Shown piece by piece: positions 25,916 to 56,620 of a stretch of 64,000 nt of DNA. A program made the position numbers and the translations under genes. Below the pieces are notes generated by a model. It made no database searches, was not told where the DNA came from, and saw nothing but the letters and a program-made list of their open reading frames with translations. Source of the DNA: a virus; IMG/VR virus record IMGVR_UViG_3300037517_003820, positions 36,280 to 100,279 of that record. One strand, given 5' to 3'. The first letter of the stretch is position 1. Each line of letters begins with the position of its first letter.

Positions 25916-26879
25916 GAGTTTCTAGTATTTCTTGAATATTATCTTTGGGAATTATATTAGTATATGCAATATCTTTTATATTAGAATCGTTTAAGCTAGA
26001 TACACTTCCGTTCTTATTAAGATCAAGTTGATTCCACCAAATATGATTATTAACAGATATATTAATGATGGGTCTATTCAACTTATTAGCAAATGGCGTT
26101 TGAATATTATCGCTTAATGAAAGAAAAATATCTCCAGTATTATGTGCTGTGATTACATTAGAAATAGTATTATCTATTGGAACAATAACTATATTAGTAA
26201 TACTATAATTAATTTCAAATAAATTATACATATCTTTTATATATTTATTATATGTCTCTAGCGTTTGCTGAGATATATTACATATATACAAAATTAAACA
26301 AGTATTACTATTGTCCTCGAAAGTTTTTATGAAATTGATAATAACATCTTTAACAATATATTCTGGTAAATTATCAATAATAGTATAATATTTTTTATAT
26401 TTTGAATATATTCCTAAGTTATATTTACCTATATTATTTTGTGAATAAAATCTATGATTTATTGTATATGTTAGTTCTTTTTTATTTTTAATATCAATAT
26501 TATCTAGTATGAATTTAGTAGTATTATTACTATACAAATAATTTATTTTTTCATCTAATATAGCATATTTTTGTTTTTGCTCATAAGATGGCATTATATT
26601 ATGTGTTATTGGCCAAAATATATGATATGGTATTTTTGATGTGTAACAGTAATTCAAAATCGAGACATTCTGTATAATAACATCAAATGAATTTATCTGT
26701 TTATTTTCTGTTATTTCTAATATATCTGTAAATTTTTTATCTTTTATTGTTTTTGTTCCATCGAATACTGGTCTACTAACTACATCTAATCCCATATCAT
26801 ATAAATTACATAGTAAATTTATAGATTCGTATCCTATACTATTTGATAATCTATATGGTGCAATATATAATATTTTCAT
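25905..26879 (-). CDS. Glycosyltransferase-like protein (GT4-type)
   Basis: 324 residues. It begins MKILYIAPYRLSNSIGYESIN, a typical family 4 start (KILxxxPxxxxxxG) that binds the acceptor side. The Rossmann strands continue, and near the C-terminus GDIFLSLSDNIQTPFANKLNRPII fits the donor-site segment, although the usual EGxG is replaced. It is AT-rich like the island around it. The start overlaps the upstream 550-aa gene by 4 nt (ATGA). Likely role: glycan transfer to a virion protein or another phage product. Confidence 0.5.
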   Translation of the reverse strand: MKILYIAPYRLSNSIGYESINLLCNLYDMGLDVVSRPVFDGTKTIKDKKFTDILEITENKQINSFDVIIQNVSILNYCYTSKIPYHIFWPITHNIMPSYEQKQKYAILDEKINYLYSNNTTKFILDNIDIKNKKELTYTINHRFYSQNNIGKYNLGIYSKYKKYYTIIDNLPEYIVKDVIINFIKTFEDNSNTCLILYICNISQQTLETYNKYIKDMYNLFEINYSITNIVIVPIDNTISNVITAHNTGDIFLSLSDNIQTPFANKLNRPIINISVNNHIWWNQLDLNKNGSVSSLNDSNIKDIAYTNIIPKDNIQEILETHAQ

Positions 26880-28528
26880 GTGTTATTTTTTAGATGTGCG
26901 TATTGAATAAAGTCTTCTTCGAATTTATGATTTGTTTTTCTTATATCTTCGGATCTATTATTGTTATCTATCATAACATTTATATAATCATATATATTAT
27001 TAATATCATATGCGGATATTTGGGTTGGAGAATTATAGCTAAATCCATAATCAGCGTTTTGTAGCATATTCAAAAATTTAAATGAAGATAATAAATCTGC
27101 ATTTCTTACATAATTATTACAAAGATTTGCTAATACGCTAAAATTATTTTTATTACCATCCGACTGGGTTTTATCGGCTTTATTTAAGATAGTTAATGGT
27201 ACGTTCCAGTCTGCTCTATATTCCAGATTATCAAAATAGTTTTCCCATACTTTGGATATATCATCCCAATTATAATATTTTTCTGTTAGTTGTCTTATTT
27301 TTAATCTTTCTGTATTTCTAATCGGTATTGGTTTGGCTATTTGCTTGAGTATAATACCAATTAGATCTTTGTTATTTGGATATACACGAATTGCTTTTGT
27401 TTCTAACTCTTTGAAATAAGAACTAGGATTAACTTTGAACGCCTGTAATTTTTCTATAATGTCAACCATTGCACTATAATCTACGGTAGCAATAGGTATC
27501 CCACACGCGCCTGCTTCAACTTGTGGCATACCAAAACCTTCACAAATAGCATATTGTACATAAAGATCAAACAGATTGTATATTTCACTTAATTGAGTAT
27601 CTGAAACACCATTTGATACAGATGGAAACTGACAGGTTTTATTTAGGCATTTTGAACACACTTTTAATGGACCACTAAAAACACAAGCCTCAGTATTCTG
27701 ACAAGTTTTGCATAGATATGTAAATAGGACATGGTTGGATACTTGGTATTGGCTAAGTAATTCCGGTATATCCCAGCCCATGTCCGGATATGTGGTATGT
27801 AGATATAGGTAAATTTTTTGATTAGTATTTTGTATTTCGGGCAAGGAGATTATCTGTTTAAGACTATATAAGAGTTCTGGTATTAGTTTGCGTTTCTGAT
27901 TTCTCATCACGGAACCAAACACAAAAGCTTCTTGTGGTATATTAAATTTTTGACGTAGTAGATTTTTATCTTTGATAGAAAAAATATTTAAATTTACACC
28001 TGGGCTGGTTGTTGCTATGTACTTAATTTTATTATTAGTTTGTTCTTTTAGAACTTTTGCCCCCCAATCACTATATGTAAAAATGGCATCTGTTGATAGA
28101 AATACGTCTACCCACTCTTCTTGTTGTGGAGCAGAATCTACTGTGGGCATAAGGATATGATGAAAATAAGATCTTAAAGGAGATAAGGTTTGGTAGCCGC
28201 TCATCCAAAAATCTCTTACGTCAACAACAACATCAGGCTTAAAGTCTAATAGAACTTTCTCAAATCTCCACCTTCCAAATTGGTTATCTGTCCTAGACAT
28301 GTATTCCTTATATCTAGGATCATTATCTCTCACAGCATTTGCATAATAAATCCAGTCTATATTTTTATCTCTCGGATCATTGACCATACCATAGGAAGCA
28401 AATTCTGCAACAACGTATTTGTTAGTTTTATGCCATCTGGATAAAATCTCGTAAGCATATTTACCAAAACCAGAATTTATGAAGCTGGCTTCGGAGCACA
28501 TCAATATTTTTAGTTTAGATTTTGCCAT
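26876..28528 (-). CDS. Family 4 glycosyltransferase with embedded Cys-rich insertion
   Basis: 550 residues. The N-terminal domain opens KLKILMCSEASFINSGFGKYAYEIL and the C-terminal domain has the clear donor-site motif ICEGFGMPQVEAGACGIPIATVD, diagnostic of GT4 (EGFGxPxxEAxACGxP). Inserted near residues 273-300 are eight or so cysteines (CKTCQNTEAC, then CSKCLNKTC), probably a zinc module not usual in GT4 enzymes. A region of about 110 residues follows the catalytic part. It is the first gene of the second glycan island. No good Shine-Dalgarno is visible, because the strong hairpin at 28535-28571 ends only 7 nt from the ATG. Confidence 0.75.
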   Translation of the reverse strand: MAKSKLKILMCSEASFINSGFGKYAYEILSRWHKTNKYVVAEFASYGMVNDPRDKNIDWIYYANAVRDNDPRYKEYMSRTDNQFGRWRFEKVLLDFKPDVVVDVRDFWMSGYQTLSPLRSYFHHILMPTVDSAPQQEEWVDVFLSTDAIFTYSDWGAKVLKEQTNNKIKYIATTSPGVNLNIFSIKDKNLLRQKFNIPQEAFVFGSVMRNQKRKLIPELLYSLKQIISLPEIQNTNQKIYLYLHTTYPDMGWDIPELLSQYQVSNHVLFTYLCKTCQNTEACVFSGPLKVCSKCLNKTCQFPSVSNGVSDTQLSEIYNLFDLYVQYAICEGFGMPQVEAGACGIPIATVDYSAMVDIIEKLQAFKVNPSSYFKELETKAIRVYPNNKDLIGIILKQIAKPIPIRNTERLKIRQLTEKYYNWDDISKVWENYFDNLEYRADWNVPLTILNKADKTQSDGNKNNFSVLANLCNNYVRNADLLSSFKFLNMLQNADYGFSYNSPTQISAYDINNIYDYINVMIDNNNRSEDIRKTNHKFEEDFIQYAHLKNNT

Positions 28529-29003: not shown

Positions 29004-29031
29004 ATTATACCAAGCGGCAGCGTTTTGTCAA
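29004..29031 (-). promoter_or_regulatory. Sigma-70 promoter for ssb
   Basis: Minus strand TTGACA (29026-29031) and TATAAT (29004-29009), both perfect, with a 16-nt spacer. The stop codon TGA of the polymerase C-terminal gene lies inside the -35 box. The predicted start point near 28997 leaves a leader of about 29 nt with AGGAG before the ssb ATG. Confidence 0.8.
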
Positions 29032-30641
29032 GATCTTGGTATAAAACATTTTTCTACTATAAAAGAGTCTTTTTTAGGACTCTTATTGCCTAGAAATATT
29101 AGTACATTTCCTTCGAATAGATAGTTTCGATATTTAGACAATTGATCAGGAAATAGGATAACGGAATCCAAGGATGCGTATTGATCCTCTATTGTGACAA
29201 AAGCCATTTCTGCACCAGCATTTTTCCCATTCTTTGTCTTAACAAAATTTATATTACTAATTTCACCAGCTAAAATAATATTTTTAACATTATTGGTATG
29301 TTTAAACATTTTGCAATCACAGTTGGTCATACTAATGTCGTACGAGTCTATTTTAAAACAGGTAATAGACGCACCAAGCAACGCATTTTCTGTGTCAGAT
29401 AACCATTCTATTTTATCGTTTAGTGAGTATGGTGGATTTTTATATAGTTTAATCAAATTTTGTATATTAGTTTTTCGCTTGATATTAATCTTACTATTAG
29501 TCAGCAGATTCTCTAAAACTTGTCCTAGATGTTTTTGGTTTATATCTAAAAGATCTAATTCTCTAGATGTTAATTCTGATATTATGTCATATTCAAACAA
29601 CATTTGTGTGCGCGACATATGATAATAATCAAGGGCTCCGCACGATATTAGTGCCTTAGCGGCTGTAGAGTTTATTTTATTGAGCAATTTTACTAAGCAT
29701 CCATACCATGATATAGAATTAAGATCCATATTTTTGACTATTTCCATAATCTTATCATATACCGAATAACCAACACCTTTTATATCTGTTAAACCAAAAT
29801 AAATTTTATCATCGTTTATAGTAAAGTGTTTATTAAGTTTTCTTAAATCTGGAACGCAAACAGTAACATCCATTTCTGTCGCGTTTCTAATTAATTCCTT
29901 GATCTCTTTTTGGGGATCCATCTTGTCTTTTGCGAACTTTAAATATGATGCAAAAAATACTTTGGCAAAGTGTGCTTTTGCATATGCTGATGAATATGCA
30001 TTCATAGCATAACTTACAGCGTGGCTCTTGTTAAAGCTATATCTTTGACTTTTTTCTATCCAACCAAAAATTTCTTCGCTCTCATCTTCTGAGACAATAT
30101 TAAGTTTTTTAACACCATCTTTGAATTTAACTTTGATTTTTGCCATTTCTTCTGGTTTCTTTTTGCCTATGGCCTTACGAAGCATATCGGCTTCTTGAAG
30201 ATCGAACCCGGCCACCGCCTGAGCGATTTGCATGGCCTGTTCTTGATAAATCATCTCGCCATAGGTGGATTTTAATGAAGGCTCAAGAGAAGGATGGAAG
30301 TAATCTAATTCTTCTAGACCATTTTTTTTATCTATATAATGATCACTGATGCTTTTGCCTTCCCTATATGCCTCTAATGATCCTGGTCGCATAATACTAA
30401 TCAATGCAGAAAGCTGCTCTATATTTTGTGGTTTAAGTTTTTTGGACATGCTAGAGCCTAGTCTGGACTCTAATTGGAAAACGCCTTTTGTGTTTCCTTG
30501 TGCTATCATATCCCATGTTTTGGAACATTCTAGATTCAGATTTTCTAGTTTGCCATCGAAATCTATTCTAGGAATACCATCCTGGGTATAGTCCAATACC
30601 TTAAATTTACAACCACAATCAAACGTATAGTGATGATTCAT
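29028..30641 (-). CDS. dnaE: DNA polymerase III alpha, C-terminal piece (fingers to OB)
   Basis: 537 residues. It carries the family C fingers and beyond: DMIAQGNTKGVFQLESRLG, KKLKPQNIEQLSALISIMRPG, then YGEMIYQEQAMQIAQAVAGFDLQEADMLRKAIGKKKPEEM, all strongly conserved in DnaE. The following helical region has an HhH-like stretch, and the last 110 residues look like an OB fold (NIILAGEISNINFV to YLFEGNVLIFLGN). It lacks the PHP domain and the catalytic aspartates, which are in two other ORFs (33218-34516 and 31523-32407). It starts 6 nt after the DnaQ-like gene. Activity must require assembly with the other two pieces. Confidence 0.9.
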   Translation of the reverse strand: MNHHYTFDCGCKFKVLDYTQDGIPRIDFDGKLENLNLECSKTWDMIAQGNTKGVFQLESRLGSSMSKKLKPQNIEQLSALISIMRPGSLEAYREGKSISDHYIDKKNGLEELDYFHPSLEPSLKSTYGEMIYQEQAMQIAQAVAGFDLQEADMLRKAIGKKKPEEMAKIKVKFKDGVKKLNIVSEDESEEIFGWIEKSQRYSFNKSHAVSYAMNAYSSAYAKAHFAKVFFASYLKFAKDKMDPQKEIKELIRNATEMDVTVCVPDLRKLNKHFTINDDKIYFGLTDIKGVGYSVYDKIMEIVKNMDLNSISWYGCLVKLLNKINSTAAKALISCGALDYYHMSRTQMLFEYDIISELTSRELDLLDINQKHLGQVLENLLTNSKINIKRKTNIQNLIKLYKNPPYSLNDKIEWLSDTENALLGASITCFKIDSYDISMTNCDCKMFKHTNNVKNIILAGEISNINFVKTKNGKNAGAEMAFVTIEDQYASLDSVILFPDQLSKYRNYLFEGNVLIFLGNKSPKKDSFIVEKCFIPRS

Positions 30642-30646
30642 AAATA

Positions 30647-31348
30647 TTATGCGGACGCTGTGGCGAACGCGTTTTTGAATTTAACCTTATTACCAAGATT
30701 TCTATGAAGTTTCATAAATCTAATAAGAATATCAGCCGTGGCTCTTACATCATTTAGCGCATCATGAGATCCACTATTGCCAAGACCTAGGTATTCTCTA
30801 ACATTATCTAATGTATAGTTTTTTAGTTCATTGTTTCCTTCAAACCAATAAAATATAACATTCATTAGATCTATAACGTCTCGTGGATAAAAAAGAGATG
30901 TTCTTCCCTCCTTATTGACATTATTATATTTCGTACTTAGTCTTTCTATGATTCTAAGATCAAATCTATTTATATTGTATCCAGCAGCTATTGGTGCTGT
31001 AAAACAAGATTTTTTATCCGATCTTATATGATATTTCTCTAAATAAGATACGAACATTTTCCATCCATTATCCTGATTTTGATAAGATTTCCAGTCCTCT
31101 AATATTTTGGTTTTCTCGCATCCTCTAACCTTGGCATGGAAATCAAGAACATCACTATCATCATATATATAATCAGGTTTTTCATCCAATATGGATGGTT
31201 TTAGATTAATATTAAATTCTGAGTCTTTGATAATTTCTAATTTATATGGATCTATTATCAGAGAGGCAATTTGAACGGGGCTACAAAGGTCAGGATTAGC
31301 CCCGTCCGTTTCTAAATCAAATACACAAATTTTTTGTAAATTAGCCAT
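30647..31348 (-). CDS. DnaQ-like 3'-5' exonuclease (DEDDh)
   Basis: 233 residues. ExoI motif FDLETDG, ExoII NINRFDLRII and ExoIII HDALNDVRAT supply the DEDDh metal ligands of the proofreading family. A C-terminal helical extension follows. It is encoded between the middle and C-terminal pieces of the split polymerase, so its likely job is proofreading for that enzyme, as the epsilon subunit does in bacteria. It overlaps the upstream 60-aa gene by 8 nt. Confidence 0.88.
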   Translation of the reverse strand: MANLQKICVFDLETDGANPDLCSPVQIASLIIDPYKLEIIKDSEFNINLKPSILDEKPDYIYDDSDVLDFHAKVRGCEKTKILEDWKSYQNQDNGWKMFVSYLEKYHIRSDKKSCFTAPIAAGYNINRFDLRIIERLSTKYNNVNKEGRTSLFYPRDVIDLMNVIFYWFEGNNELKNYTLDNVREYLGLGNSGSHDALNDVRATADILIRFMKLHRNLGNKVKFKNAFATASA

Positions 31349-31523
31349 TTGTCTCCACTACTGTGTTTCCTGGGAAAAAAGTCCTTTGATTACTATCTGT
31401 TGCAACATGACAATTAACGCTTCTGCAACAACTTACTCTAACTTCTTGGATCTTAGTATATTCTACATTATTAGCTTTAAAGTTTTCGCCCACAGCAACT
31501 TGGTCTAATGTTTTTGTTAACAT
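31341..31523 (-). CDS. Small Cys-containing phage protein
   Basis: 60 residues, overlapping the polymerase middle piece as TAATG and the DnaQ gene by 8 nt. It reads like a small beta-barrel (VAVGENFKANNVEYTKI, then VRVSCCRSVNC, then RTFFPGNTVVE). Similar short modules occur in other phages next to DNA-metabolism genes, but no function is known to me. Its place inside the polymerase locus suggests a cofactor or an accessory protein. Confidence 0.55.
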   Translation of the reverse strand: MLTKTLDQVAVGENFKANNVEYTKIQEVRVSCCRSVNCHVATDSNQRTFFPGNTVVETNG

Positions 31524-32407
31524 TATAGTTCTCCGTTTTTTAGGTATTCTGATACAGACATGATTTTGTCCAAATAAGCTATACCCAATATATCAAATTT
31601 AATTAAACCCAAACTCTCTAGATCATTCATCTCCATGCCCGCTATCAGCTGATCATTTCTATTATCATAGACCATAGGACACAGAGATGCAAGATCTTCG
31701 GTACCTATTATTACACCAGCAGCGTGTTTGCTTTGGTTGGATTTTGTTCCTTCAAGCCTTATGGCCTGTTCAAATCTTTTTGACAATGGACCAGCCAACG
31801 AACCATCTTCTGCTATGTAGCACCATTCTTTAAGCTTGTCTGTATTATTCTCTAAGGCCCATCTAATAATTGAGGCTTCTCCGGTATCTTCTTTCATCTC
31901 TTGAAGCTCGTCGGCTATTTTTGCTTCGTCAGGAATAAATTTGGTAATAGAATTCATTTCTTCGAAAGATATATTACCATATACTCTTAGCACATCTTTT
32001 AATGCTCCTCTACCTTTCATAGTATTAAAAGTAATCATTTGTGATACTTTGCCATGTCCATATTTACTTTTTATATATTCTAATACTTGTTCTCGTTTAT
32101 CTATTGGGATATCTATATCGATATCTGGCATTTGTATTCTGGCTGGAATGCTTTGTATTGGACGAGTATTATCAAGCTGATCGACAATACCATATATCCA
32201 CATTATATAACTATTAATAGTGTTTTCGGATAAAATATTTTTATTTACTATTATATGATTATAGTATGATATATTTTCTGGAGCCGAAAGAACTATAGAG
32301 CATTCATGTTCAAGAAATCTATTATTTTTTTCTTGTTCTAACCTTTCGATTATAGGCTGGCTTTTAATCTCATGTACTAGTCTAGTAAGTATAGAATTTT
32401 TTTCCAT
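31523..32407 (-). CDS. dnaE: DNA polymerase III alpha, middle piece (catalytic palm)
   Basis: 294 residues. It contains all three catalytic aspartates expected for family C: two in MPDIDIDIPIDKREQV and one in LIKFDILGIAYLDKIM. Between them is the typical VSQMITFNTMKGRGALKDVLRVYG and EGTKSNQSKHAAGVII. The first 100 residues (to SIPAR) have no clear counterpart in standard DnaE. The frame is open upstream of the ATG, and codons tat aga cta caa just before it join smoothly to the end of the N-terminal piece, so this is the continuation of one gene broken by the insertion at 32377-33195. There is no clear Shine-Dalgarno; translation may be coupled to the endonuclease ORF, which ends 30 nt inside it. 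Confidence 0.88.
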   Translation of the reverse strand: MEKNSILTRLVHEIKSQPIIERLEQEKNNRFLEHECSIVLSAPENISYYNHIIVNKNILSENTINSYIMWIYGIVDQLDNTRPIQSIPARIQMPDIDIDIPIDKREQVLEYIKSKYGHGKVSQMITFNTMKGRGALKDVLRVYGNISFEEMNSITKFIPDEAKIADELQEMKEDTGEASIIRWALENNTDKLKEWCYIAEDGSLAGPLSKRFEQAIRLEGTKSNQSKHAAGVIIGTEDLASLCPMVYDNRNDQLIAGMEMNDLESLGLIKFDILGIAYLDKIMSVSEYLKNGEL

Positions 32408-33195
32408 TTGTAGTCTATATATAAATGATTGTTTAGTAAATATTTTGCTATAACTTTAATTTCACTCTTGTTTTGGTATATTAACTGATACAAGTCTCTA
32501 TTTTTTATTTTTGTTGGTTTTTTATATTTTACAGGTAAGGCTTTGGATACTGTTTCCAAATTTTCTGGAAGATATGAACATATACCTATGTTGTAACCAG
32601 TGTAGACTTTATTTTTATTGGTTTGTTTTTTTATACTAACCCATCCATCAGCATCCCAATATCCTCTTATAAAATCTGGCCATAATAATTGATCCGACGG
32701 TAATTTTAAAGTACTATACCATGTTTTTCTTGGTATAATACCATATTTTGATATATTATTTGCTAAAATATCACTAGTAAATTGAAATGTACACCTATTA
32801 TCGTAGTCTTTTACTATATTAGAGCCTATTAAAAATTTAGAAAATTTAATCAAATGTTTTTTTGATTCTGATCCCAAGCATAATTGTAGCTTATTACTAT
32901 CACTAATATTTCCATCGCCAAAAATAAAACCAAGCCAATAAGCTGATGCGGCATCTAATTTAGAGAAATCATTTAATAATTTTTTTTTACTATTTTTAGT
33001 AAATCTAGTTGATTTTGCTAAACAACCACAACTTTTAACATGGTTAATCTTTATCATAGATAGTTTCTTATAACAGACATTGCCGCATTTACATTTACAC
33101 TTAGCAATTGTTTCTCCTTTACTATCCGAAACTAAAGTTATTATAGTAAGTAAATTATAACTCTTATTTTTATAGTCTTTTATTTTAGCTTTCAT
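32377..33195 (-). CDS. LAGLIDADG homing endonuclease inserted in dnaE
   Basis: 272 residues from the ATG at 33195, chosen because GGAGG lies 6 nt upstream; an in-frame ATG at 33228 lacks such a site. Two LAGLIDADG motifs are visible, AYWLGFIFGDGNIS and WPDFIRGYWDADGWVS, about 115 residues apart as in single-chain two-motif enzymes. The N-terminus has a CKCKCGNVC...SCGC cysteine cluster, a likely zinc DNA-binding module. The gene fills almost the whole space between the two polymerase pieces, so there is no room for a group I intron core outside it. It is best read as a free-standing homing endonuclease gene that splits its host gene. Confidence 0.88.
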   Translation of the reverse strand: MKAKIKDYKNKSYNLLTIITLVSDSKGETIAKCKCKCGNVCYKKLSMIKINHVKSCGCLAKSTRFTKNSKKKLLNDFSKLDAASAYWLGFIFGDGNISDSNKLQLCLGSESKKHLIKFSKFLIGSNIVKDYDNRCTFQFTSDILANNISKYGIIPRKTWYSTLKLPSDQLLWPDFIRGYWDADGWVSIKKQTNKNKVYTGYNIGICSYLPENLETVSKALPVKYKKPTKIKNRDLYQLIYQNKSEIKVIAKYLLNNHLYIDYKWKKILYLLD

Positions 33196-33217
33196 ATTGC
33201 CTCCGGAATTATACTGT

Positions 33218-34516
33218 TTATACACCATTTTTAAATGTTTGTATAGAAAATTCCGGAAAAGATATGTGTTCTTTTACATTCCTGCCATCGGAATAAAATC
33301 TTTCAAATAGTAATTCGTGTTTAATAGGGTCTATATCTGTAATACCTATTAAATAAGAAACCAAGCATCCGGCTGCGCTTCCTCGTCCTGGTCCTGCTAA
33401 CCAATTATTATTTTTAACATATCTTAGTATGTCTTGAACAATTAGAAAATAACTACTAAGCCCAGCATTTTGCAAAACCTGTAGTTCATATTTTATTCTA
33501 TCAACATAAATATCGTGTTGTGATTTGTCAATATTCGGTATAATTCTATTTTTCCAACCTTTTCTACATAATTCTCTTAAATATTCATCCGGAGAGAATC
33601 CTTCGGGACATTCGAATTTAGGTAATTTAGGTGGTGATAGTATATCAAAATTTTCTATTAGACTATCCACAAATAAAGTGTTTTCTATCTCTTCATCGCT
33701 ATGAAGAGTTTTCATTTCTTCCGGAGACAGAATATAGTATTTGTCACTTTTAAAGAAACACTCCATAGGTACAGATTGATTATGAAGCATCTTAGTATTT
33801 ATATCTGATAATGTTGTTTTAAGATTATTACAGAGTAATATTCTTTGATCTATAGCATCGTCTTGTTCGCAATAATGAGCATCCGGTGTGCATACCGCTT
33901 TTGTTTTACTTAATTCAGAAATTCTTCTTATTGTATCTGTCAAATATGTTTGTTGTTTTAAATATGCTTGATCAAATAGTTGTGTCTCTAGAAAAAAATT
34001 ATCAGTGCCAAATATAGTTTTCATATAGTCCACAAAAGATAATCCATTATCTATAGCTTTGGATTCGTCGCATAATATCTTATCTGCTAATGTTGATCCC
34101 AAATGTCCACAAATACCTATAATGTTACCATCCAGTATTTCTGCTAATTTCGCCAAACTTAAACGCGGCTTATGATAAAAGTAATCGGGTCTGTTAGATT
34201 CGGAAACAATCTTTATTAAGGTTTTCCATCCTTGCAAATTTTTCGCCAATACCAAAAAATGTGATAATGAAGCATTTTCTTTTGTTTGTATACTCGGATC
34301 ATCTTCACATATATATAATTCACAACCAAGAATTGGTTTTATATTTTTATTTCGCATTTTCTGATAGAACTGTACAGAGCCGGCGATGTTACCATGATCG
34401 GTTAAGGCACAAGAATTAATGCCTAATTTAGAACATCTATTAGCTATTTGTTCTGGACGATTAAGACCATCCAAAAGACTAAAATGCGAATGACAATGAA
34501 GAACAGAATAGGTCAT
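33218..34516 (-). CDS. dnaE: DNA polymerase III alpha, N-terminal PHP and palm piece
   Basis: 432 residues. It begins with a PHP domain (VLHCHSHFSLLDGLNRPEQI, then CALTDHGNIAGSVQFY and GCELYI, with further His and Asp such as TPDAHYCE) and continues into the palm with WLAGPGRGSAAGCLVSYLIG and LLFERFYSDGRN. It stops at FSIQTFKNGV, where the downstream DNA is the homing endonuclease insertion. Standard DnaE would run directly on to the PDIDID motif. The PHP metal ligands look mostly preserved, so a metal-bound or proofreading PHP is possible. Its ATG overlaps the nuclease gene stop (ATGA). Confidence 0.88.
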   Translation of the reverse strand: MTYSVLHCHSHFSLLDGLNRPEQIANRCSKLGINSCALTDHGNIAGSVQFYQKMRNKNIKPILGCELYICEDDPSIQTKENASLSHFLVLAKNLQGWKTLIKIVSESNRPDYFYHKPRLSLAKLAEILDGNIIGICGHLGSTLADKILCDESKAIDNGLSFVDYMKTIFGTDNFFLETQLFDQAYLKQQTYLTDTIRRISELSKTKAVCTPDAHYCEQDDAIDQRILLCNNLKTTLSDINTKMLHNQSVPMECFFKSDKYYILSPEEMKTLHSDEEIENTLFVDSLIENFDILSPPKLPKFECPEGFSPDEYLRELCRKGWKNRIIPNIDKSQHDIYVDRIKYELQVLQNAGLSSYFLIVQDILRYVKNNNWLAGPGRGSAAGCLVSYLIGITDIDPIKHELLFERFYSDGRNVKEHISFPEFSIQTFKNGV

Positions 34517-36501
34517 ACTGATCCTGGCGCTTTGTAAGATCCAAAAGAATGATTCGGGTGTTTGTACATACTCATTGTAGCATCGATCCCATAAAGTTCA
34601 AGGTCGTGCTTGACTTGTTCGCACTTTGTCATGACAGATCCTTTTTGACATATTTGTCCATCTCTATATTCCTCCAAAGGTTGTATGCTAGTATTTTCAA
34701 AAGTGGTTTTACCGAAATGGCATAATTTATTACACATCCATGTTTTATTAAGCTTAGGACGTTTTGTTTTCTTAATAATATCAAATTTTTCTCTCAACAT
34801 ATTTTCTGTGTCTATGAGATCGCTATCATGAAATACCATAGAAAAAGGACCACCATCATTAATAAAGTAGATAGAAAAAATTACATTTTCAATATGCGGA
34901 TATAATTTTTTAATAGCATAGTGATAAATTTTAAGTTGTGGATCTTTTTCTAACTTTTCTTGGGTTTTTTCTTGACCGGTTGCCCAATCTAGTCTTCGTC
35001 CAGTATTATGTGTTGGAATATAATTTTCTGTACACAGATAAGTATTGTCTGGACTGTCTACGGAAATGCATTGAGTTTTTTGTATAATCGATTCTTCTAT
35101 TTTAGAAACTCGTCTAACCCTAGATCTTCCAGATCCCCAATTTACATCCACAAGTTCTTTTTTCCTGTTCAATAGAAAAGGATTAATGTCAATTGGACGA
35201 AACGAAATAGGATATATGATTACGTTTTTTTTGTAATTTGTATCTCTTTTAATACACGCTTGATTCGGTCTTTGCCCAAGGGTTAAAAGTAGGTCTTTAA
35301 CATCGTCGGATAGTTTTTTATTACAAGAAGTAAACACAGTTTGTTTTCTAATTGGATTTACATTTCCGTCTGTATCCATCAAACCCCTTAGTAAGTCTAG
35401 CCTTTGTTGAAAAGATGCTCTCAAATAAATTTTTGGTATATGTTTATTATTCAATAGATTTAAAGATTTTAGTATTTTTGTCACATTTAGGATCGATACT
35501 GTCTTATTTTTTGATCTTTTATCATTTTGAATTTTTCCTAGCTCATAACCTCTTGCTTGTATTTCTTCAAAAATTTCAGTATCATTGCCACTAATCTCGC
35601 AACCTCTATTTCTTCCGTCTCCTAACCAGACTCCTAATAGATAAGGATCTATTGGTAGGGATTGTTCATTACATTTTAATGGTTTTGTCACATTAATAGT
35701 ATCGCCAATAGCTAGATCCTGTATAGATACCGTTTCACCATTAGATAATTTCCATAAATGCTCATCGTCACAAATTACCGATGTTTTGTCATCAAAAGTT
35801 ACTCTGAAACATTTTTTTGTTTTGACTTTTGATTTTCCAACAACGCGACATATATTACCGTATTGATCAAAGACATTACATCCCACATTTATATCTGCAA
35901 TTGTTGTCCATCCGTCAAGAGTAGGTAATTTTGTATCTAATGGCAATCCTTTCCAATCTATGACCTCAATAGTATTATCATTAGCCAAAGTTATAAGATC
36001 TATAGTGCCTTTTAAGCCCAAATATCCATCTAGTTTTTGATTATTAATATTATACTCGTATTTAGCCCATGGTTTTTCTATTACCAAATCAAAGTGTTGT
36101 TCTGGTCTAAGAATGGTGCGATTTCTAGGATCAAACATACCGCCATTAAATTCTATAGCCTTGTAAACCCAATTATAGCAGTCCTTATAGTCTTTTAGAG
36201 TCCAAGTATGATGACTATTAGCGGTACTATAATGCTTGTATACTTTTTCTATTATGGTATTAAGACTATAGTCATTTATATCTATAAGACCTAAGAATTC
36301 GTCGTCGTTTATATGAGATAATTTATCTTGCTGACCTTGTTTGATCATGGCAAGAATTTCTAAAACTTTATGGACTATTGTTCCTTTATCCGCCTTTTGT
36401 CCACTTGGACCCCTCCATCCTAGTACATATTCAAAAAAATATTGTTGTTCGCACATAGAATGGGCATTATAAGACGAACTACGGAAATAAGTTATAATCA
36501 T
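34513..36501 (-). CDS. RecB/AddB-like Fe-S nuclease interrupted by an intein
   Basis: 662 residues, of which 347 remain after removing the intein (185-499). The extein is a PD-(D/E)XK nuclease of the RecB/Cas4 type: H44 in KGTIVHKVLE, D168 in GTIDLI, and D182-W-K184 then T-G-R-R of the DxKTGR motif. Cys7 (SMCEQQYFFEYV) and the C-terminal WMCNKLC plus later cysteines fit the four-Cys Fe-S cluster of AddB/Cas4 nucleases. The intein sits between K184 and T500, inside the catalytic motif, so the precursor should be inactive until spliced. Likely job: end-processing exonuclease for replication or recombination, next to the polymerase and dNMP kinase genes. Confidence 0.85.
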   Translation of the reverse strand: MIITYFRSSSYNAHSMCEQQYFFEYVLGWRGPSGQKADKGTIVHKVLEILAMIKQGQQDKLSHINDDEFLGLIDINDYSLNTIIEKVYKHYSTANSHHTWTLKDYKDCYNWVYKAIEFNGGMFDPRNRTILRPEQHFDLVIEKPWAKYEYNINNQKLDGYLGLKGTIDLITLANDNTIEVIDWKGLPLDTKLPTLDGWTTIADINVGCNVFDQYGNICRVVGKSKVKTKKCFRVTFDDKTSVICDDEHLWKLSNGETVSIQDLAIGDTINVTKPLKCNEQSLPIDPYLLGVWLGDGRNRGCEISGNDTEIFEEIQARGYELGKIQNDKRSKNKTVSILNVTKILKSLNLLNNKHIPKIYLRASFQQRLDLLRGLMDTDGNVNPIRKQTVFTSCNKKLSDDVKDLLLTLGQRPNQACIKRDTNYKKNVIIYPISFRPIDINPFLLNRKKELVDVNWGSGRSRVRRVSKIEESIIQKTQCISVDSPDNTYLCTENYIPTHNTGRRLDWATGQEKTQEKLEKDPQLKIYHYAIKKLYPHIENVIFSIYFINDGGPFSMVFHDSDLIDTENMLREKFDIIKKTKRPKLNKTWMCNKLCHFGKTTFENTSIQPLEEYRDGQICQKGSVMTKCEQVKHDLELYGIDATMSMYKHPNHSFGSYKAPGSV
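35005..35949 (-). mobile_element. Class 3 intein with LAGLIDADG endonuclease
   Basis: 315 residues (185-499 of the host protein). It starts G-LPLDTKLPTLDGW, not with the usual Cys or Ser, and ends TENYIPTHN before extein T500. Instead of an N-terminal nucleophile it shows the class 3 signature W-C-T: Trp250 in DDEHLWKL (block B, with His248), Cys478 in QCISVDSPD (block F) and Thr497 in THN (block G). The central part has two LAGLIDADG-type motifs, YLLGVWLGDGRN and LLRGLMDTDGNVN. It is therefore predicted to splice by the branched-ester class 3 route and to home at the DWK-TG site. Confidence 0.88.
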
Positions 36502-51476: not shown

Positions 51477-52268
51477 TTAAATATTTTCTTTTATATAGTT
51501 ATTAATATCTAATATATCATACATATATTCTGTATCTTGATTAGATAATATTGTTGTAAAGTTTTGGTTAGTTTTTTGATTATAATATTTAGAATAAGAG
51601 TCTGCCTGGTATGTATTTCTATAACACCTGGGTATCAAAGGATAAAAGGTATGCATATCCAAATTATTGCAAACTTGACCAAAATATATATCTCCTTCTG
51701 GTTTTAGTCCTCTTAAATATCCAAAATTTTTCCATATTTTATATGTGATGCCGAACTCGAAACTGGGAATCCAATTAGCATAATATATTTTATCTATATG
51801 GGAGTGTGGGAAATCGTATTTTTCTGGACTATACATCAAAGATCCGGATATTGCAAATGTTTTTGGATATTTATATACATAATGATTGTACATATATTCG
51901 TGATATAGTAAAAAATCTTTAGAGACAACGCAATCATCTTCTAAAAATATAACATAATCACTAAATTTAAAACCAAGATTTATAATTGTTTGACATGCTT
52001 TGTATGGGCCATAATTTGTATTTAATATTATTAAGTTTATTAATTTAAAATTATATTTTTTTAAAGCAATATATTTTATAAGTTCTTTTTTTAATATTTT
52101 GTTTTGTATTATCCAATCATTTTTATCTAAATATGGCATATTATTTGTTGAATCTATACTTATAAGTATTTGATATTTATGAGAATTTACACAATTATTT
52201 AAAGTATCAAGTAATAAAAAAGTATCTTTTATTTTAATAAATGTATTGATGCAAATTATATTGTTCAT
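51477..52268 (-). CDS. Glycosyltransferase (GT2/GNT-I-like)
   Basis: 263 residues. A GT-A pattern: N-terminal strand IICINTFIKIKDTFLLLDTL, then LIILNTNYGPYKACQTIINLGF and the metal-binding VIFLEDDCVVSKDFLLYH (EDD, DxD-type), followed by ISGSLMYSP. The last part has a histidine-containing loop. It fits a small GNT-I or family 2-like transferase that adds one sugar. Overlaps the upstream GT fusion by 4 nt. Confidence 0.65.
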   Translation of the reverse strand: MNNIICINTFIKIKDTFLLLDTLNNCVNSHKYQILISIDSTNNMPYLDKNDWIIQNKILKKELIKYIALKKYNFKLINLIILNTNYGPYKACQTIINLGFKFSDYVIFLEDDCVVSKDFLLYHEYMYNHYVYKYPKTFAISGSLMYSPEKYDFPHSHIDKIYYANWIPSFEFGITYKIWKNFGYLRGLKPEGDIYFGQVCNNLDMHTFYPLIPRCYRNTYQADSYSKYYNQKTNQNFTTILSNQDTEYMYDILDINNYIKENI

Positions 52269-54352
52269 TTTATTTTAAAATTTTTTATAACATCTATAAA
52301 TTTAAGTCTATTAATTTCTTGAAATCGCTTTGTTCCATTCTCAATGTTTGTACCAGCGCTAGATCCTTCATTATGAATAGCTATCGCTCTAGGTTCATAT
52401 AAGGTATTTAAACCAAAGGAATGTCCTCTGTATTGTAATTCGCTATCCTCATAATACATAGGATAAAATATAGTATTAAATACGCCTATTCTATTTATGG
52501 TTTCTCTTTTGATTAATAAAAAACATCCGGAACAATATCCAACATATTTAGGTATATTATATATGAGACTATTTGGATCATCATATCTTCCTATATTTCT
52601 ACCAAATCCGTCTTCATACAATTCTGCCCCTGCTTCCGCTAATCTTCCATCAGGAAAAATAGTTTTACCGCCAACAAAACCAATATCTCCGGAAGAATAT
52701 GCGGATGATACCATATGCGATAGCCAATCTTCTGATACTATTTCAATATCATCGTTAATCAATACTACATCAGAATTTTTATATTTTATATCTAGCATTA
52801 CTTTATTATTTGGAATAATAAAAAATTCATTACTTTTATTTTTAATATAGGTAACTTTATTTTCTATGTTATTTTCTTTTAAAAAATCTCCTATAGAATT
52901 TTCTATTTGCTGTGTTGTGCTATTATCTGTAACTACTATATGATAATTTTTATAGCTTGTTTTTCTTATGATAGAAGATAGGCATTTGTATAGTCGTTCT
53001 TTGTTATTAAAAGCAACAATACTGATCACCATATGTTTATCTTCTAATGTATTTTTTAAAACATCAATACTTCTTTGTGTAGACACTATATTATGTATAT
53101 GTTTTTGTCCTAAATTTGCTATTTTTTGTTGTTCATTGATGTTGTTTTTATAGAAAGCACATAAACTTTTAACAAAACTATCGTTACTAGTACAAATAAA
53201 TCCATTTACAGAGTCAGTAAGATTTATGCCCTCATTACCTATTGGTGACGTTATAATTGCGAGATTTGCCATAGCAGCGTCGCATATTTTGCCTTTTATA
53301 CCAGCACCCCAATTTAATGGGGCTAATAATACCGAACATTTTGAATATATACTGTTCAAATCAGAAACATGATCAGTAATAATTATCTGTTTATCATTAT
53401 AAATATCAGAAGAAAAATTGATATTTTTACTATTAGGACCAACAATAAATAATTTTGGTTTTTGGTAAATAATATTTTTGTATTCTTTAGTTTCTTGAAA
53501 TTTTTTATATATTTCAACAGCTTGTTGTGCGGCATCTATATTTGGGCGATGATCATAACTACCAATAAATAAAATATTATATTCTATTTTTTTTATATTT
53601 TTAGGATCATGAATATTACTAAGAATTTTAATATTATTATTATATCCTATTTCTTTTTGTAGAAATATTTTATCATCATTTGTAACAGTAAATATAACAT
53701 TCGCTTTTTTATAAGTATTTATTTCTTTGTTTTTATTACTATATAATAGTTCGTCTGTGATATTTAATAATCCCGCATTTTTTCCTCTGTGTTCTCTAAT
53801 CCAATGTATATCAACAGTATCAATAATAATTTTAATATTAGGATAATAAGATTTTACAATATCAATATATTGATCTGCTATATCATACCAAGAAAATATT
53901 GCATTGTTATATATAATATTATTATCAGCTGCTTTTTTTAGATTTATATCAAAATATTTATTATTTTTTATGTCTGGTAAATTAATTGTTATACCTAGTT
54001 GTTGTAATTTTTTAATATGATAATTTTTTTTATATCCATTACAAAAAAAAGATACGTTATATTTTAAATATAATTTTAGAATTGTTAGTATTTGTAAAAG
54101 TCTATTACCCCCGCTACTCATGTCGTAGTCTGGTGCGATTGGTGAAAAATAGAGTAGATTTTTTCCACTATTCCAAAATTCTGCATTATTTTTTGTTTTA
54201 TAATCTATATAACGTCTATTTTGTTTGATTCCAAAATTTAGATAGTGTTCTATACATGCTTTATCATTTGGTAATATTGATTGTATATCTTTGTTAATCT
54301 CAAAATATTTTTTAGGATTAAAGTTTATTGGTAACATGCTATAGTTAGTCAT
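52265..54352 (-). CDS. GT4-GT2 bifunctional glycosyltransferase fusion
   Basis: 695 residues. The N-terminal part (to about 430) is a GT-B family 4 enzyme: NLLYFSPIAPDYDMSSGGNRL, then ILFIGSYDHRPNIDAAQQAV and VLLAPLNWGAGIKGKICDAA. The C-terminal part (about 440-695) is a GT2: VISIVAFNNKERLYKCLSSI, then VVLINDDIEIVSEDWLSHMV (DDD/DD metal site), VGGKTIFPDGRLAEAGAELY and YEDSELQYRG. Such fusions build alternating polymers or disaccharides in phage and bacterial surface-glycan clusters. It overlaps both neighbours by 4-8 nt. Confidence 0.85.
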   Translation of the reverse strand: MTNYSMLPINFNPKKYFEINKDIQSILPNDKACIEHYLNFGIKQNRRYIDYKTKNNAEFWNSGKNLLYFSPIAPDYDMSSGGNRLLQILTILKLYLKYNVSFFCNGYKKNYHIKKLQQLGITINLPDIKNNKYFDINLKKAADNNIIYNNAIFSWYDIADQYIDIVKSYYPNIKIIIDTVDIHWIREHRGKNAGLLNITDELLYSNKNKEINTYKKANVIFTVTNDDKIFLQKEIGYNNNIKILSNIHDPKNIKKIEYNILFIGSYDHRPNIDAAQQAVEIYKKFQETKEYKNIIYQKPKLFIVGPNSKNINFSSDIYNDKQIIITDHVSDLNSIYSKCSVLLAPLNWGAGIKGKICDAAMANLAIITSPIGNEGINLTDSVNGFICTSNDSFVKSLCAFYKNNINEQQKIANLGQKHIHNIVSTQRSIDVLKNTLEDKHMVISIVAFNNKERLYKCLSSIIRKTSYKNYHIVVTDNSTTQQIENSIGDFLKENNIENKVTYIKNKSNEFFIIPNNKVMLDIKYKNSDVVLINDDIEIVSEDWLSHMVSSAYSSGDIGFVGGKTIFPDGRLAEAGAELYEDGFGRNIGRYDDPNSLIYNIPKYVGYCSGCFLLIKRETINRIGVFNTIFYPMYYEDSELQYRGHSFGLNTLYEPRAIAIHNEGSSAGTNIENGTKRFQEINRLKFIDVIKNFKIK

Positions 54353-55043
54353 TATAATATAAACCTATTTTAAGATTATGATGAGATACTATATATCCAA
54401 ATATTCTTTCTAAAGAGTGAGTATACGTTCCGTGTTCTTCATTAATTTTATTTTTTTCATTTTTCAGATAAGACTCAAGTATCGAATACTGCGGCAGTAA
54501 TATTTGTTTAAACATATTAGTTTTACTAATAAAGGTTGATCCAGCAAAAAATGGACTATTTTTTAATTTAGTATAATTTAATTGTAGTAAATTGCATAAT
54601 GTTTTTATTTTATTTATATGTATAGATTTATCATTATTATGTAGTAAATATTTTTTATTTCCTATCATTCCTATTGTGGGTAATGATAATGTTTTAATAG
54701 CACGATCTACAATAGATGGTTTAAGTAAATGATTTAAATCATATCTCCAATTGGTATTTCCGTATCCCCATAAACTTTTTTTACTGTGTGTTTTTATAAA
54801 GAATGGTTCGGAGATAGCTTTTAACTGATATAAAAATGGTGCTATATCAGCTCCATAATTTTCATGGAAACTTAGAGAATAGTTCCAAGACAAATTAGAT
54901 AGGTCTTTTAGAATATGAGAAAAATTAGTATTAATACATAATCCTAAATATAATTTTATCTTATATTTTATATTTTCAATTAGTTCTTTATACTCGTCCC
55001 ATAAATCTGTATGATATAGATATAATGCTACAGCAATTTTCAT
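54345..55043 (-). CDS. RgpF-like glycan protein (short paralogue)
   Basis: 232 residues, with the same signature blocks as the longer paralogue at 49227-50186: KIAVALYLYHTDLWDEYKEL, FHENYGADIAPFLYQLKAI, FFIKTHSKKSLWG, IGMIGNKKYLLH, SPFFAGSTFISK and THSLERIFGYIV. It is the RgpF or rhamnan-synthesis F type. Its start overlaps the stop of the Thr/Pro FGE-like gene (TAATG). Duplication of this gene at both ends of the island suggests two steps that use related sugars. Confidence 0.7.
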   Translation of the reverse strand: MKIAVALYLYHTDLWDEYKELIENIKYKIKLYLGLCINTNFSHILKDLSNLSWNYSLSFHENYGADIAPFLYQLKAISEPFFIKTHSKKSLWGYGNTNWRYDLNHLLKPSIVDRAIKTLSLPTIGMIGNKKYLLHNNDKSIHINKIKTLCNLLQLNYTKLKNSPFFAGSTFISKTNMFKQILLPQYSILESYLKNEKNKINEEHGTYTHSLERIFGYIVSHHNLKIGLYYND

Positions 55044-56620
55044 TACTGGTTAGTTGGTGTTTGGGTAATTGTTGGTGTTAATGTGGTGGTAGATGTTGGG
55101 GTTATTGTAGGTGTTAATGTGACGGTGGGTGTTGGGGTGGAGGTTTTTGTTACTGATGGAGTAGGAGTTTGTGATACATTCGGCATTTCTTTTACTAACA
55201 TAATTTTATCATTGATACGTCCTTCTAAAATAAAACCCTTATATAATACTTTGATGTCATCATTACTATAAATATTAGGATTATATTGTAGTTGTCCAAT
55301 TTTAAATGTATCACATAGAGCTTTAGTAGAAGTAGGAGTTGGAGTATATGTTGGTGTTGGTGTTGGCGTGTGAGAGGATGTAAAGCTTACTGTTGGCGTT
55401 GGTGTTTGAGTTCTAGTAACCGTTCTAGTGGGTGTTTTTGTAGGTGTACGAGTAGGAGTTGATGTTTTTGTTTGAGTCGGAGTTTGAGTATTTGTAACAG
55501 AAGGCGTGAGTGTGGGTGTTGGGGTAGCGCTTGCTGTAAGAGTTGTTGTTGTGGTTAATGTTGGTGTACAAGATGGAGTTAAGGATGGGGTTGTTGAAGG
55601 AGTGGGCGTTGGACTACTTGTTATACTTGGTGTGGGTGTTGGGCTAAGACATGCTCCAGGACTACCAAAAGTATTGTTTGCTATTCCATTATTAACATTA
55701 ACCGTTATAGAGTATGGTTCTGTGTCGCTTTGTGTAGCGTATAACCAATATCCGCCTGTTCCATTTTTTGTCGGATCATAATAGGCTGCTTTTACCCACT
55801 CATCGCGATCAGGAATCCAATAATATGTTTTATTTGAGGCTGTCGGTTTAGGAAGAGGGTTGGTGAAATTAAGAGAATATATTCCTGTTTCTGTCGAATT
55901 GACTGCTAAACCGCCGCTGTTAGGTTTGCCATTACTTAACCAATTAACATATCTAGCCGCGCTATACCAATTAATATAAATAACTGGTTTTTTAGCCATA
56001 TTATCTTTAACGGTATATACTATAGGATTAGTACCGGCTACTACTATACCACCTTGAATATTTGTGGTCATAGCGCCTAAATAGGGCCATATACTATTAG
56101 CTGGTACGGCCAAAGCATTATTTAAAGCAGGAACTCTTGCCACATTATTTAAAAATAAGATATATTCTTCATTTGTTATAGTAAATTTGGATATTTTATA
56201 TTCATAATTAACTTCGCCAAGATCATCTCCATAATGATTTCTATTTGTATCTCCAATATTAGAACCAGATACTGTTACAAAGTTACTATCTGAGATACCA
56301 GAATTTGCACAAATCCTAAATCCGAATCCTTGTAATGAGCTTCCTATTGGCGGAGTAACGCCATAAAGATTTGTAAGATCTATTAATCTTGAATTATGAG
56401 AACCACCATAATATAATATACTTTGTGATGATGGTATTTGGTAATCTATAATTTCCCATACATTACCATTTTGATCGAAGGTGCCATAAAAACTAGGTCT
56501 GCCATTTGCGCCAACGCTTGTGACATTACCATTATTCTCTGTTCCTGGTAGCCATACAGCCGTACCATCATAGTTTGCACTATTACAATTTCCTAATACA
56601 GAATATTCTGGAACACTCAT
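55043..56620 (-). CDS. Thr/Pro virion protein with circularly permuted FGE-sulfatase-like domain
   Basis: 525 residues. The N-terminal domain shows FGE-sulfatase/SUMF1-like motifs in reversed half order: the normally C-terminal half comes first (YGTFDQNGNVWE 45-56, YYGGSHNSRL 70-79, GFGFR 98-102), then the normally N-terminal half (KFTITNEEYILFLN 145-158, KPVIYINWYSAARYVNWL 211-228, IPDRDEWVKAAYY 269-281, YWLYATQSD 291-299). The catalytic cysteines of true FGE are absent, so a C-type-lectin-like binding role is likely. Two Thr/Pro linkers (326-432, 484-524) enclose a short domain (437-480). Probably a fibre or adhesin tip on a mucin-like stalk. Expressed upstream of the glycan genes. Confidence 0.75.
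   Translation of the reverse strand: MSVPEYSVLGNCNSANYDGTAVWLPGTENNGNVTSVGANGRPSFYGTFDQNGNVWEIIDYQIPSSQSILYYGGSHNSRLIDLTNLYGVTPPIGSSLQGFGFRICANSGISDSNFVTVSGSNIGDTNRNHYGDDLGEVNYEYKISKFTITNEEYILFLNNVARVPALNNALAVPANSIWPYLGAMTTNIQGGIVVAGTNPIVYTVKDNMAKKPVIYINWYSAARYVNWLSNGKPNSGGLAVNSTETGIYSLNFTNPLPKPTASNKTYYWIPDRDEWVKAAYYDPTKNGTGGYWLYATQSDTEPYSITVNVNNGIANNTFGSPGACLSPTPTPSITSSPTPTPSTTPSLTPSCTPTLTTTTTLTASATPTPTLTPSVTNTQTPTQTKTSTPTRTPTKTPTRTVTRTQTPTPTVSFTSSHTPTPTPTYTPTPTSTKALCDTFKIGQLQYNPNIYSNDDIKVLYKGFILEGRINDKIMLVKEMPNVSQTPTPSVTKTSTPTPTVTLTPTITPTSTTTLTPTITQTPTNQ

Follow-up and report, generated by a model that had tools for sequence, protein, structure and literature searches.

The family C DNA polymerase (DnaE) of a lake phage is encoded in three separate open reading frames (ORFs), and the replicase is probably made as three chains that assemble non-covalently, with the first cut in the gene (cut 1) being the site of a cassette carrying a homing endonuclease (HE) and the second (cut 2) an old gene fission. 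The DNA analysed, here called the window, is a stretch of 64,000 nt corresponding to positions 36280–100279 of the 100,279-base IMG/VR virus record IMGVR_UViG_3300037517_003820. The phage belongs to an aquatic phage clade.

A preliminary description of the window had proposed that three minus-strand ORFs together make one DnaE. Profile searches bore this out, as the adjacent ORF1, ORF2 and ORF3 tile one family C polymerase and cover positions 3–403, 393–572 and 581–1021 of TIGR00594. ORF1 matches Pfam PHP (E 2.4e-34) and positions 1–99 of DNA_pol3_alpha, ORF2 matches positions 96–260 of the latter, and ORF3 matches DNA_pol3_finger (E 1.5e-47) and HHH_6 (1.1e-10), with an OB match below the Pfam cut-off. 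The ORFs lie where they were first placed, and so do the motifs GRGSAAG (33388–33368), PDIDID (32128–32111), KFDILG (31600–31583) and GVFQLES (30485–30465). The PHP domain, the palm with GRGS and PDxDxD...KFD, the fingers and the OB fold are thus all found, spread across three ORFs. It also holds that no single chain contains a whole active site, and that the chains need to be brought together. The arrangement recurs in eight IMG/VR contigs and one contig of a metagenome-assembled genome (MAG), where every piece is an open frame throughout the available sequence (the locus being truncated by the contig end in L005 and L008), and it is not an assembly accident.

Related loci, numbered with the prefix L, were gathered by seven viral scans and one genome scan, at most 80 loci of each scan serving as samples. 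The counts below refer to 106 distinct dnaE sequences, distinctness being judged over 421 nt from PDIDID. The window is not among them; L003 has the same protein sequence in the ORF2 core. Also left out were L001/L002, L170–L200, loci in which the beginning of the ORF2 core is incomplete, L310, whose contig ends before this core, and L161 (3205–4933), where the dnaE frame is broken near FDRFYN, likely by an assembly error. Unsplit homologues, which the preliminary description had recommended looking for, make up most of the set, as 96/106 sequences are uninterrupted at cut 1. The ten cut sequences are six window-like ones, L011, L209, L210 and L220. Cut 1 lies directly before the PDIDID catalytic strand, between GRGSAAG and the catalytic Asp residues. 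Five lineages carry it: the window-like sequences, L011, L209, L210 together with L310 (76% identical DNA), and L220. All five have the site in common, as well as an upstream HE or a remnant of one and a tail that shows [IV][SN]F in the place of the ISM of unsplit genes.

The closest comparison is with L012, where the gene is uninterrupted and identity to the window is 97.1% on the upstream side (5,991 nt) and 95.6% on the downstream side (1,214 nt). Homology between the two breaks off after FERFYSDGRN at 33278 and picks up again with MPDIDID at 32131, and the alignment to unsplit L013 ends at the same upstream position. Per 60 nt, identity to L012 is 0.92–1.0 along ORF1 and falls to 0.87, 0.75, 0.80 and 0.77 in the four blocks that directly precede the site, whereas past the site it is 0.95 in the first block and 0.92–1.0 beyond. 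The divergence is confined to approximately 220 nt before the site, which is the pattern that co-conversion during homing would leave. Furthermore, split (L009, L011) and unsplit (L025, L032, L079) alleles occur in contigs carrying the same metagenome number, 3300023179. An HE ORF thus lies inside the coding region and is absent from close relatives, and from this distribution cut 1 looks young and mobile.

The HE ORF has a LAGLIDADG domain, and an alignment of four HEs showed that both acidic motif residues are kept (GDG, DADG). A search of the HE against solved structures gave a best E of 0.28. Its probable start is at 33195, behind a GGAGG judged by eye. Upstream, the window tail VKEHISFPEFSIQTFKNGV occupies the place of TKDRISMPDIDID in unsplit relatives, and the Asp residues of the motif are lost. 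The tail of L011, ISEQISFPEFPIKDFNSSV, has the same length as that of the window; the tails of L210 and L310 end in EKHVSFDELNYLENFK and EKHISFDELNYLEKFK, and L220 and L209 have IPKNISFDEEKYEKYMKLV and VSNHVNFSEAPYSSFYEKAEII.

Downstream of the HE, ORF2 begins with an N-extension of about 90 aa that is present in all five lineages, the contig of L310 ending inside it. Across the five lineages 19/93 columns are invariant, NSYIMWI included. Between the window and L011, nonsynonymous (dN) and synonymous (dS) divergence of the extension in frame are 0.51 and 1.44; the ORF2 core is less free (0.16 and 1.85), and in the other two frames of the extension DNA dN is about equal to or above dS, with 8–13 stops. 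No DnaE model matched ORF2 aa 1–87. An AlphaFold2 (AF2) model of ORF2 has helices at 5–14, 20–26, 30–41, 43–54 and 67–71, followed by a low-confidence linker, and solved DnaE/PolC chains align with this model from approximately residue 91 (best 5lew, Z 12.0, root mean square deviation (rmsd) 3.4, 104 aligned). The extension modelled alone is all-helical (pLDDT 72.3, pTM 0.60). Pfam, run on the extensions of four of the five lineages, gave no match for three and one below cut-off for L011. Scans with the extension led back to split dnaE in every confirmed case, 12/12 loci in IMG/VR (out of 135 pattern stretches) and 1/1 in GTDB genomes (out of 261). L077, L147 and L082, which matched ORF2 from residue 12, were rejected, as the matching stretch lies over their own N-palm in an uninterrupted gene and the match was taken for an alignment run-on. 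The new ends created by cut 1 have thus gained a tail and an extension that are retained.

One conceivable origin of the extension is an overlapping duplication, with the extension a decayed N-palm and each chain carrying a dummy palm half. The tail does have ISFPEF in place of the catalytic strand, the extensions of four of the five lineages rank 2, 6, 9 and 22 of 1005 (1000 shuffles and 5 real sequences) against an N-palm profile, and a loose structural match places residues 10–294 on E. coli 289–577 (rmsd 14.7). The fifth lineage, L220, ranks only 293 of 1005, profile-profile comparison of extension and N-palm gave Prob 0.2 and E 0.33–0.38, and the fold of the extension alone found nothing in the PDB at E≤0.001 with Foldseek and a best Z of 2.6 with VIA. 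Since neither the profile-profile nor the shuffle tests were significant, the duplication was rejected, and we regard it as rather unlikely.

The start of piece 2 overlaps the HE ORF by 31 nt and has no Shine-Dalgarno sequence evident by eye, which suggests that its translation is probably coupled to that of the HE. In L209 the HE is reduced to a 43-residue frame, while the split, the tail and the extension are all kept. Against the C-terminus of the window and L011 HEs this frame beats 1000/1000 shuffles; against the L210 and L220 HEs its score is reached by 5 and 25 of 1000 shuffles, and a Pfam match is absent. The remnant overlaps piece 1 at its end and piece 2 at its start, and some upstream translated frame may be needed for piece 2. 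The retention of tail and extension despite the loss of the HE suggests that the split enzyme, rather than the HE, is the part being preserved. Distant LAGLIDADG hits (L170–L200) were also considered as dnaE-related and rejected, only L171/L172 having weak dnaE matches nearby; neither motif string of the extension turned up in any of the 31.

A further possibility for cut 1 is a group I or other self-splicing intron with an HE ORF, in which case PHP, palm and thumb would be made as one chain. Group I introns carry HEs, in phage polymerase genes as well (PMC3428280, in part), the Jug phages have many introns (PMC12363816, in part), and the break at cut 1 is clean. We nevertheless consider an intron unlikely. 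Rfam at gathering thresholds gave no match in the 64-kb window, although it may lack some subtypes, and at E≤5 the window insert gave one non-intron hit (E 3.4) and the L209 insert two (E 3.5 and 3.9), none of an intron family. Outside the HE the insert is protein-coding with frame-specific constraint, and the whole L209 insert is about 400 nt and mostly coding. Folding-energy z-scores of the extension DNA against mononucleotide shuffles are -1.7 for the window, -0.8 for L209, -2.6 for L210, -1.6 for L220 and -0.4 for L011, a spread that shows the extension DNA not to be uniformly structured.

It is very unlikely that the tail and the N-extension are instead the halves of a split intein with a very short N-half, and that the chains are ligated by trans-splicing. 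In its favour, four relatives (L142, L029, L034 and L232) have split-intein sequences and a nuclease-like ORF 34 codons upstream of cut 1, at GRG|SAAG; atypical split inteins have lengths similar to tail plus extension (about 20 + 90 aa); and a Ser at the ISF/VSF position is common to 4/5 tails. That Ser is Asn in L209, however, and a final Asn occurs in 0/5 extensions, the end residues of which vary. The extension is predicted to be all-helical, in contrast to the beta-rich Hint fold, and the intein search that detected intein_Nterm in L142 (35.5 bits, cut-off 24.5) found no intein family in ORF1 or ORF2 of the window. Where the preliminary description had left a choice between assembly from three chains and a joining of RNA or protein, the need for assembly stands, and the searches for RNA joining and protein splicing gave no support to the second option.

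The window dnaE might also be dead, inactivated by the HE insertion, with replication carried out by a host or other polymerase. The records may be fragments and piece 1 of L209 is degenerate, both of which would fit a dead gene. Between the window and L011, however, dN/dS is approximately 0.18 for ORF1, 0.09 for the ORF2 core and 0.12 for ORF3, at 65–79% amino acid identity, and the nine near-identical contigs keep open frames as far as they reach. The catalytic motifs of the window are kept. No other polymerase was found in the families searched. A complete second dnaE, named earlier as a finding that would make the pieces dispensable, was not detected, PF07733 and PF17657 having no second match in the 100-kb fragment record. 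PF00476 (PolA) and PF00136 (PolB) had no match in this fragmentary record, other polymerase families not being searched, and in the related records, its own included, they were found in 0/14 and 0/15, respectively. One fingers match is present in 13/14 records. Inactivation of the gene is therefore improbable.

Cut 2 has a different history. Among the distinct sequences, 100 of the 101 that are readable at this point are split with an exonuclease gene between the halves (five of the 106 are unreadable); the exception is L220. The 60-aa ORF between palm and exonuclease is present in 156/159 loci, duplicates counted, the exceptions being L152 and L157, which have no match, and L155, which begins inside the ORF. 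GenBank phages were compared through 30 ORF2 rows and 40 ORF3 rows, and among the matches listed 19 phage records have both, with a gap of ≤178 nt, which leaves no room for an exonuclease gene. Set against these closely adjoining matches, the split state of 100/101 sequences marks the palm|fingers fission as an old, stable trait of the aquatic clade. In L220 the HE, the tail and the N-extension are present and palm and fingers form one 816-aa chain, whereas 92/106 sequences show the reverse pattern or are unreadable at the second cut; the two cuts are therefore independent. Both cuts of the preliminary description are thus real. They are not one event, as the old fission (100/101) stands against a sporadic HE insertion (10/106).

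Taken together, the three-chain DnaE would have arisen in two steps. Cut 2 would be an old gene fission that separated palm and thumb from the fingers, with a presumed proofreading exonuclease gene between the halves. At cut 1, the cassette would consist of a free-standing LAGLIDADG HE, an in-frame tail and stop upstream and a helical extension of about 90 aa downstream. The distribution of alleles and the conversion-like tract suggest that the HE would cleave dnaE alleles that lack it, close to the codons preceding the catalytic strand, and be copied in with flanking DNA. Tail and helical extension would let the halves fold and dock, so that GRGSAAG on chain 1 meets the Asp residues on chain 2, and would have been retained for that role; their conservation and the precedent of the Aeromonas phage Aeh1 ribonucleotide reductase (RNR) point this way. 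More tentatively, it is possible that the cassette carries its own assembly domain and lets its host survive by rebuilding the active site in trans, without RNA or protein splicing. Such a cassette would also be hard to lose, because translation of the downstream half would depend on the HE ORF.

Several observations weigh against this account. Assembly and activity of the three chains are inferred from sequence and by analogy. The dS values given above are close to saturation, the palm part of the AF2 model is weak (mean pLDDT 69.9, pTM 0.43), and the records being possibly fragments, a second polymerase may exist elsewhere. The direction of change at cut 1 is not proven, and a gain in the window phage and a loss in L012 are both possible, because the tract of the window resembles that of split L011 no more closely (0.77, 0.73, 0.82, 0.79) than the tract of L012 does (0.82, 0.62, 0.83, 0.82), and because GRGSAAG, which the window has where L012, L013 and L014 have GRGSGAG, is the common form also among other unsplit relatives. 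In an ORF2-core DnaE tree of 96 rows the split state takes 5 changes, 2 of them forced by starred branches, and a single clade of the seven split rows is rejected (cost 48.6 log units, p-AU 0.00675). This result speaks for lateral movement of cut 1, but it is weighed lightly, since the tree was built quickly and several of its rows have long branches. Finally, the L209 copy may be decaying, as its piece 1 has ARGSSCS for GRGSAAG, the branch of its piece 2 is very long, and a fingers match was not found on its 16-kb contig.

Table 1. Features of the split dnaE locus, in window coordinates
Feature	Position	Strand	Basis or content
dnaE piece 1 (ORF1)	33218..34516	-	432 aa; PHP and first palm part with GRGSAAG, LLFERF
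Co-conversion-like tract	33278..33496	-	60-nt identity profile against unsplit L012
C-terminal tail of piece 1, VKEHISFPEFSIQTFKNGV and stop	33218..33277	-	alignment to unsplit L012/L013 ends at 33278
LAGLIDADG HE ORF	32377..33228	-	Pfam LAGLIDADG_3 3.1e-8
dnaE piece 2 (ORF2)	31523..32407	-	294 aa; N-extension, PDIDID catalytic strand, thumb, KFDILG strand
N-extension of piece 2	32132..32407	-	92 aa; overlaps 3' end of HE ORF by 31 nt
ORF of unknown function	31341..31523	-	60 aa; no Pfam match
DnaQ/RNase_T-like 3'-5' exonuclease gene between palm and fingers genes	30647..31348	-	Pfam RNase_T 4.3e-9
dnaE piece 3 (ORF3)	29028..30641	-	537 aa; fingers, HhH, OB fold

The genes near the dnaE pieces encode a primase, a DnaB-like helicase, a UvsX-like recombinase, a deoxynucleoside monophosphate (dNMP) kinase, both RNR subunits, a single-stranded DNA-binding protein (SSB) and a PD-(D/E)XK nuclease. 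The nuclease (34513–36501) contains a 315-aa LAGLIDADG intein-like insert at 35005–35949 (minus strand; DWK|GLPLDTK...PTHN|TGRR), which begins with Gly, as it does in L011 and L220; the insert is absent from relatives such as L142 and L029. It could be a class 3 intein. The split intein with a PD-(D/E)XK-like nuclease ORF at GRG|SAAG lies at 4050–7126 in L142, 3536–6615 in L029, 3536–6615 in L034 and 3534–6594 in L232. Models confirmed the split-intein reading for L142, and the nuclease ORFs of L142 and L029 have weak Phage_endo_I/PD-(D/E)XK matches below cut-off. HE-like ORFs also adjoin the dnaE pieces, without being inside them, in L026 (6645–7340), L029 (6649–7332), L232 (2773–3492) and L224 (3854–4882); they were called by eye or by weak tblastn, and Pfam gave nothing over cut-off for those of L026 and L232. 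The dnaE locus looks like a hot spot for HE-like ORFs.

Elsewhere in the window, FGE-sulfatase domains occur in two proteins (55043–56620 and 57746–59161, minus strand) and glycosyltransferase domains at 52265–54352 and 26876–28528. Megablast of 24–40 kb against 50,697 phage records gave no match. A near-identical phage contig, L298 (RFNS01000104.1), is part of a MAG titled Alphaproteobacteria bacterium, Lanier, which may be a weak host lead and possibly reflects misbinning.

If the more tentative reading, a cassette with its own assembly domain, is true, there would be a third, non-splicing way for an HE to be tolerated, beside introns and inteins, and the cassette would move among diverse phage DnaE genes. 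A family C replicase would join the phage RNR and the family B polymerase among HE-associated genes-in-pieces. The five lineages, one of them mostly without the HE, and the near-identical phages with and without the insert provide material for comparison, and make it testable how a selfish endonuclease can persist in an essential gene when no splicing takes place, and how much division the DnaE palm tolerates. The three-chain polymerase would be a ready-made split replicase.

Among the literature matches listed, judged by title or the start of the abstract, none described the splitting of a family C polymerase by an HE or exonuclease gene. Polymerase genes of the Jug phages are often split by endonuclease sequences, the polymerase family not being stated in the cited part of that source (PMC12363816), and a further report concerns a different, PolB-bearing aquatic lineage (PMC12619734, in part). 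The preliminary description named phage RNR as the documented case of genes-in-pieces; this holds, and a split at which an HE lies is also in print for a family B DNA polymerase, that of Aeromonas phage 25, the chains of which co-purify with polymerase activity, while according to the review it is hard to tell whether an HE made the split (PMC2988022, in part). This polymerase, encoded by 43A-43B in phages 25 and 44RR, is a split phage DNA polymerase like that of the window, but of family B, at another site and with other extensions.

In the fractured gene of MIJ3 PolB, intein halves are held to ligate the chains (PMC6892783, in part). Like the window dnaE, fractured genes are broken around an HE ORF, and they occur in its relatives at GRG|SAAG, but they carry intein halves, none of which were detected at cut 1 of the window. 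Fractured genes with a split intein and an HE were reportedly described by Dassa et al. in 2009. The dnaE of cyanobacteria is also divided into two genes; unlike that of the window, it is joined by a split intein and is not known to have an HE between the halves.

The nearest parallel is the RNR of phage Aeh1, in which NrdA-a and NrdA-b, two chains split by mobE, form a working enzyme of composition (alpha-a + alpha-b)2 beta2 (PMC2988022, PMC3267527, both in part). In both cases an essential phage enzyme is interrupted by an HE in a critical region; Aeh1 has an RNR with an HNH-type HE, whereas the window has a family C polymerase with a LAGLIDADG HE. Going by its title, a paper by Crona et al. 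from 2011 is said to describe interaction domains derived from the mobile element that assemble the Aeh1 enzyme. As far as sequence goes, the window locus passes as genes-in-pieces made by an HE. Going by the literature matches listed, what appears to be new is a family C polymerase cut within its active site, with an overlap with an older fission and, compared to Aeh1, with five lineages, presence and absence between near-identical phages and a conserved extension of about 90 aa.

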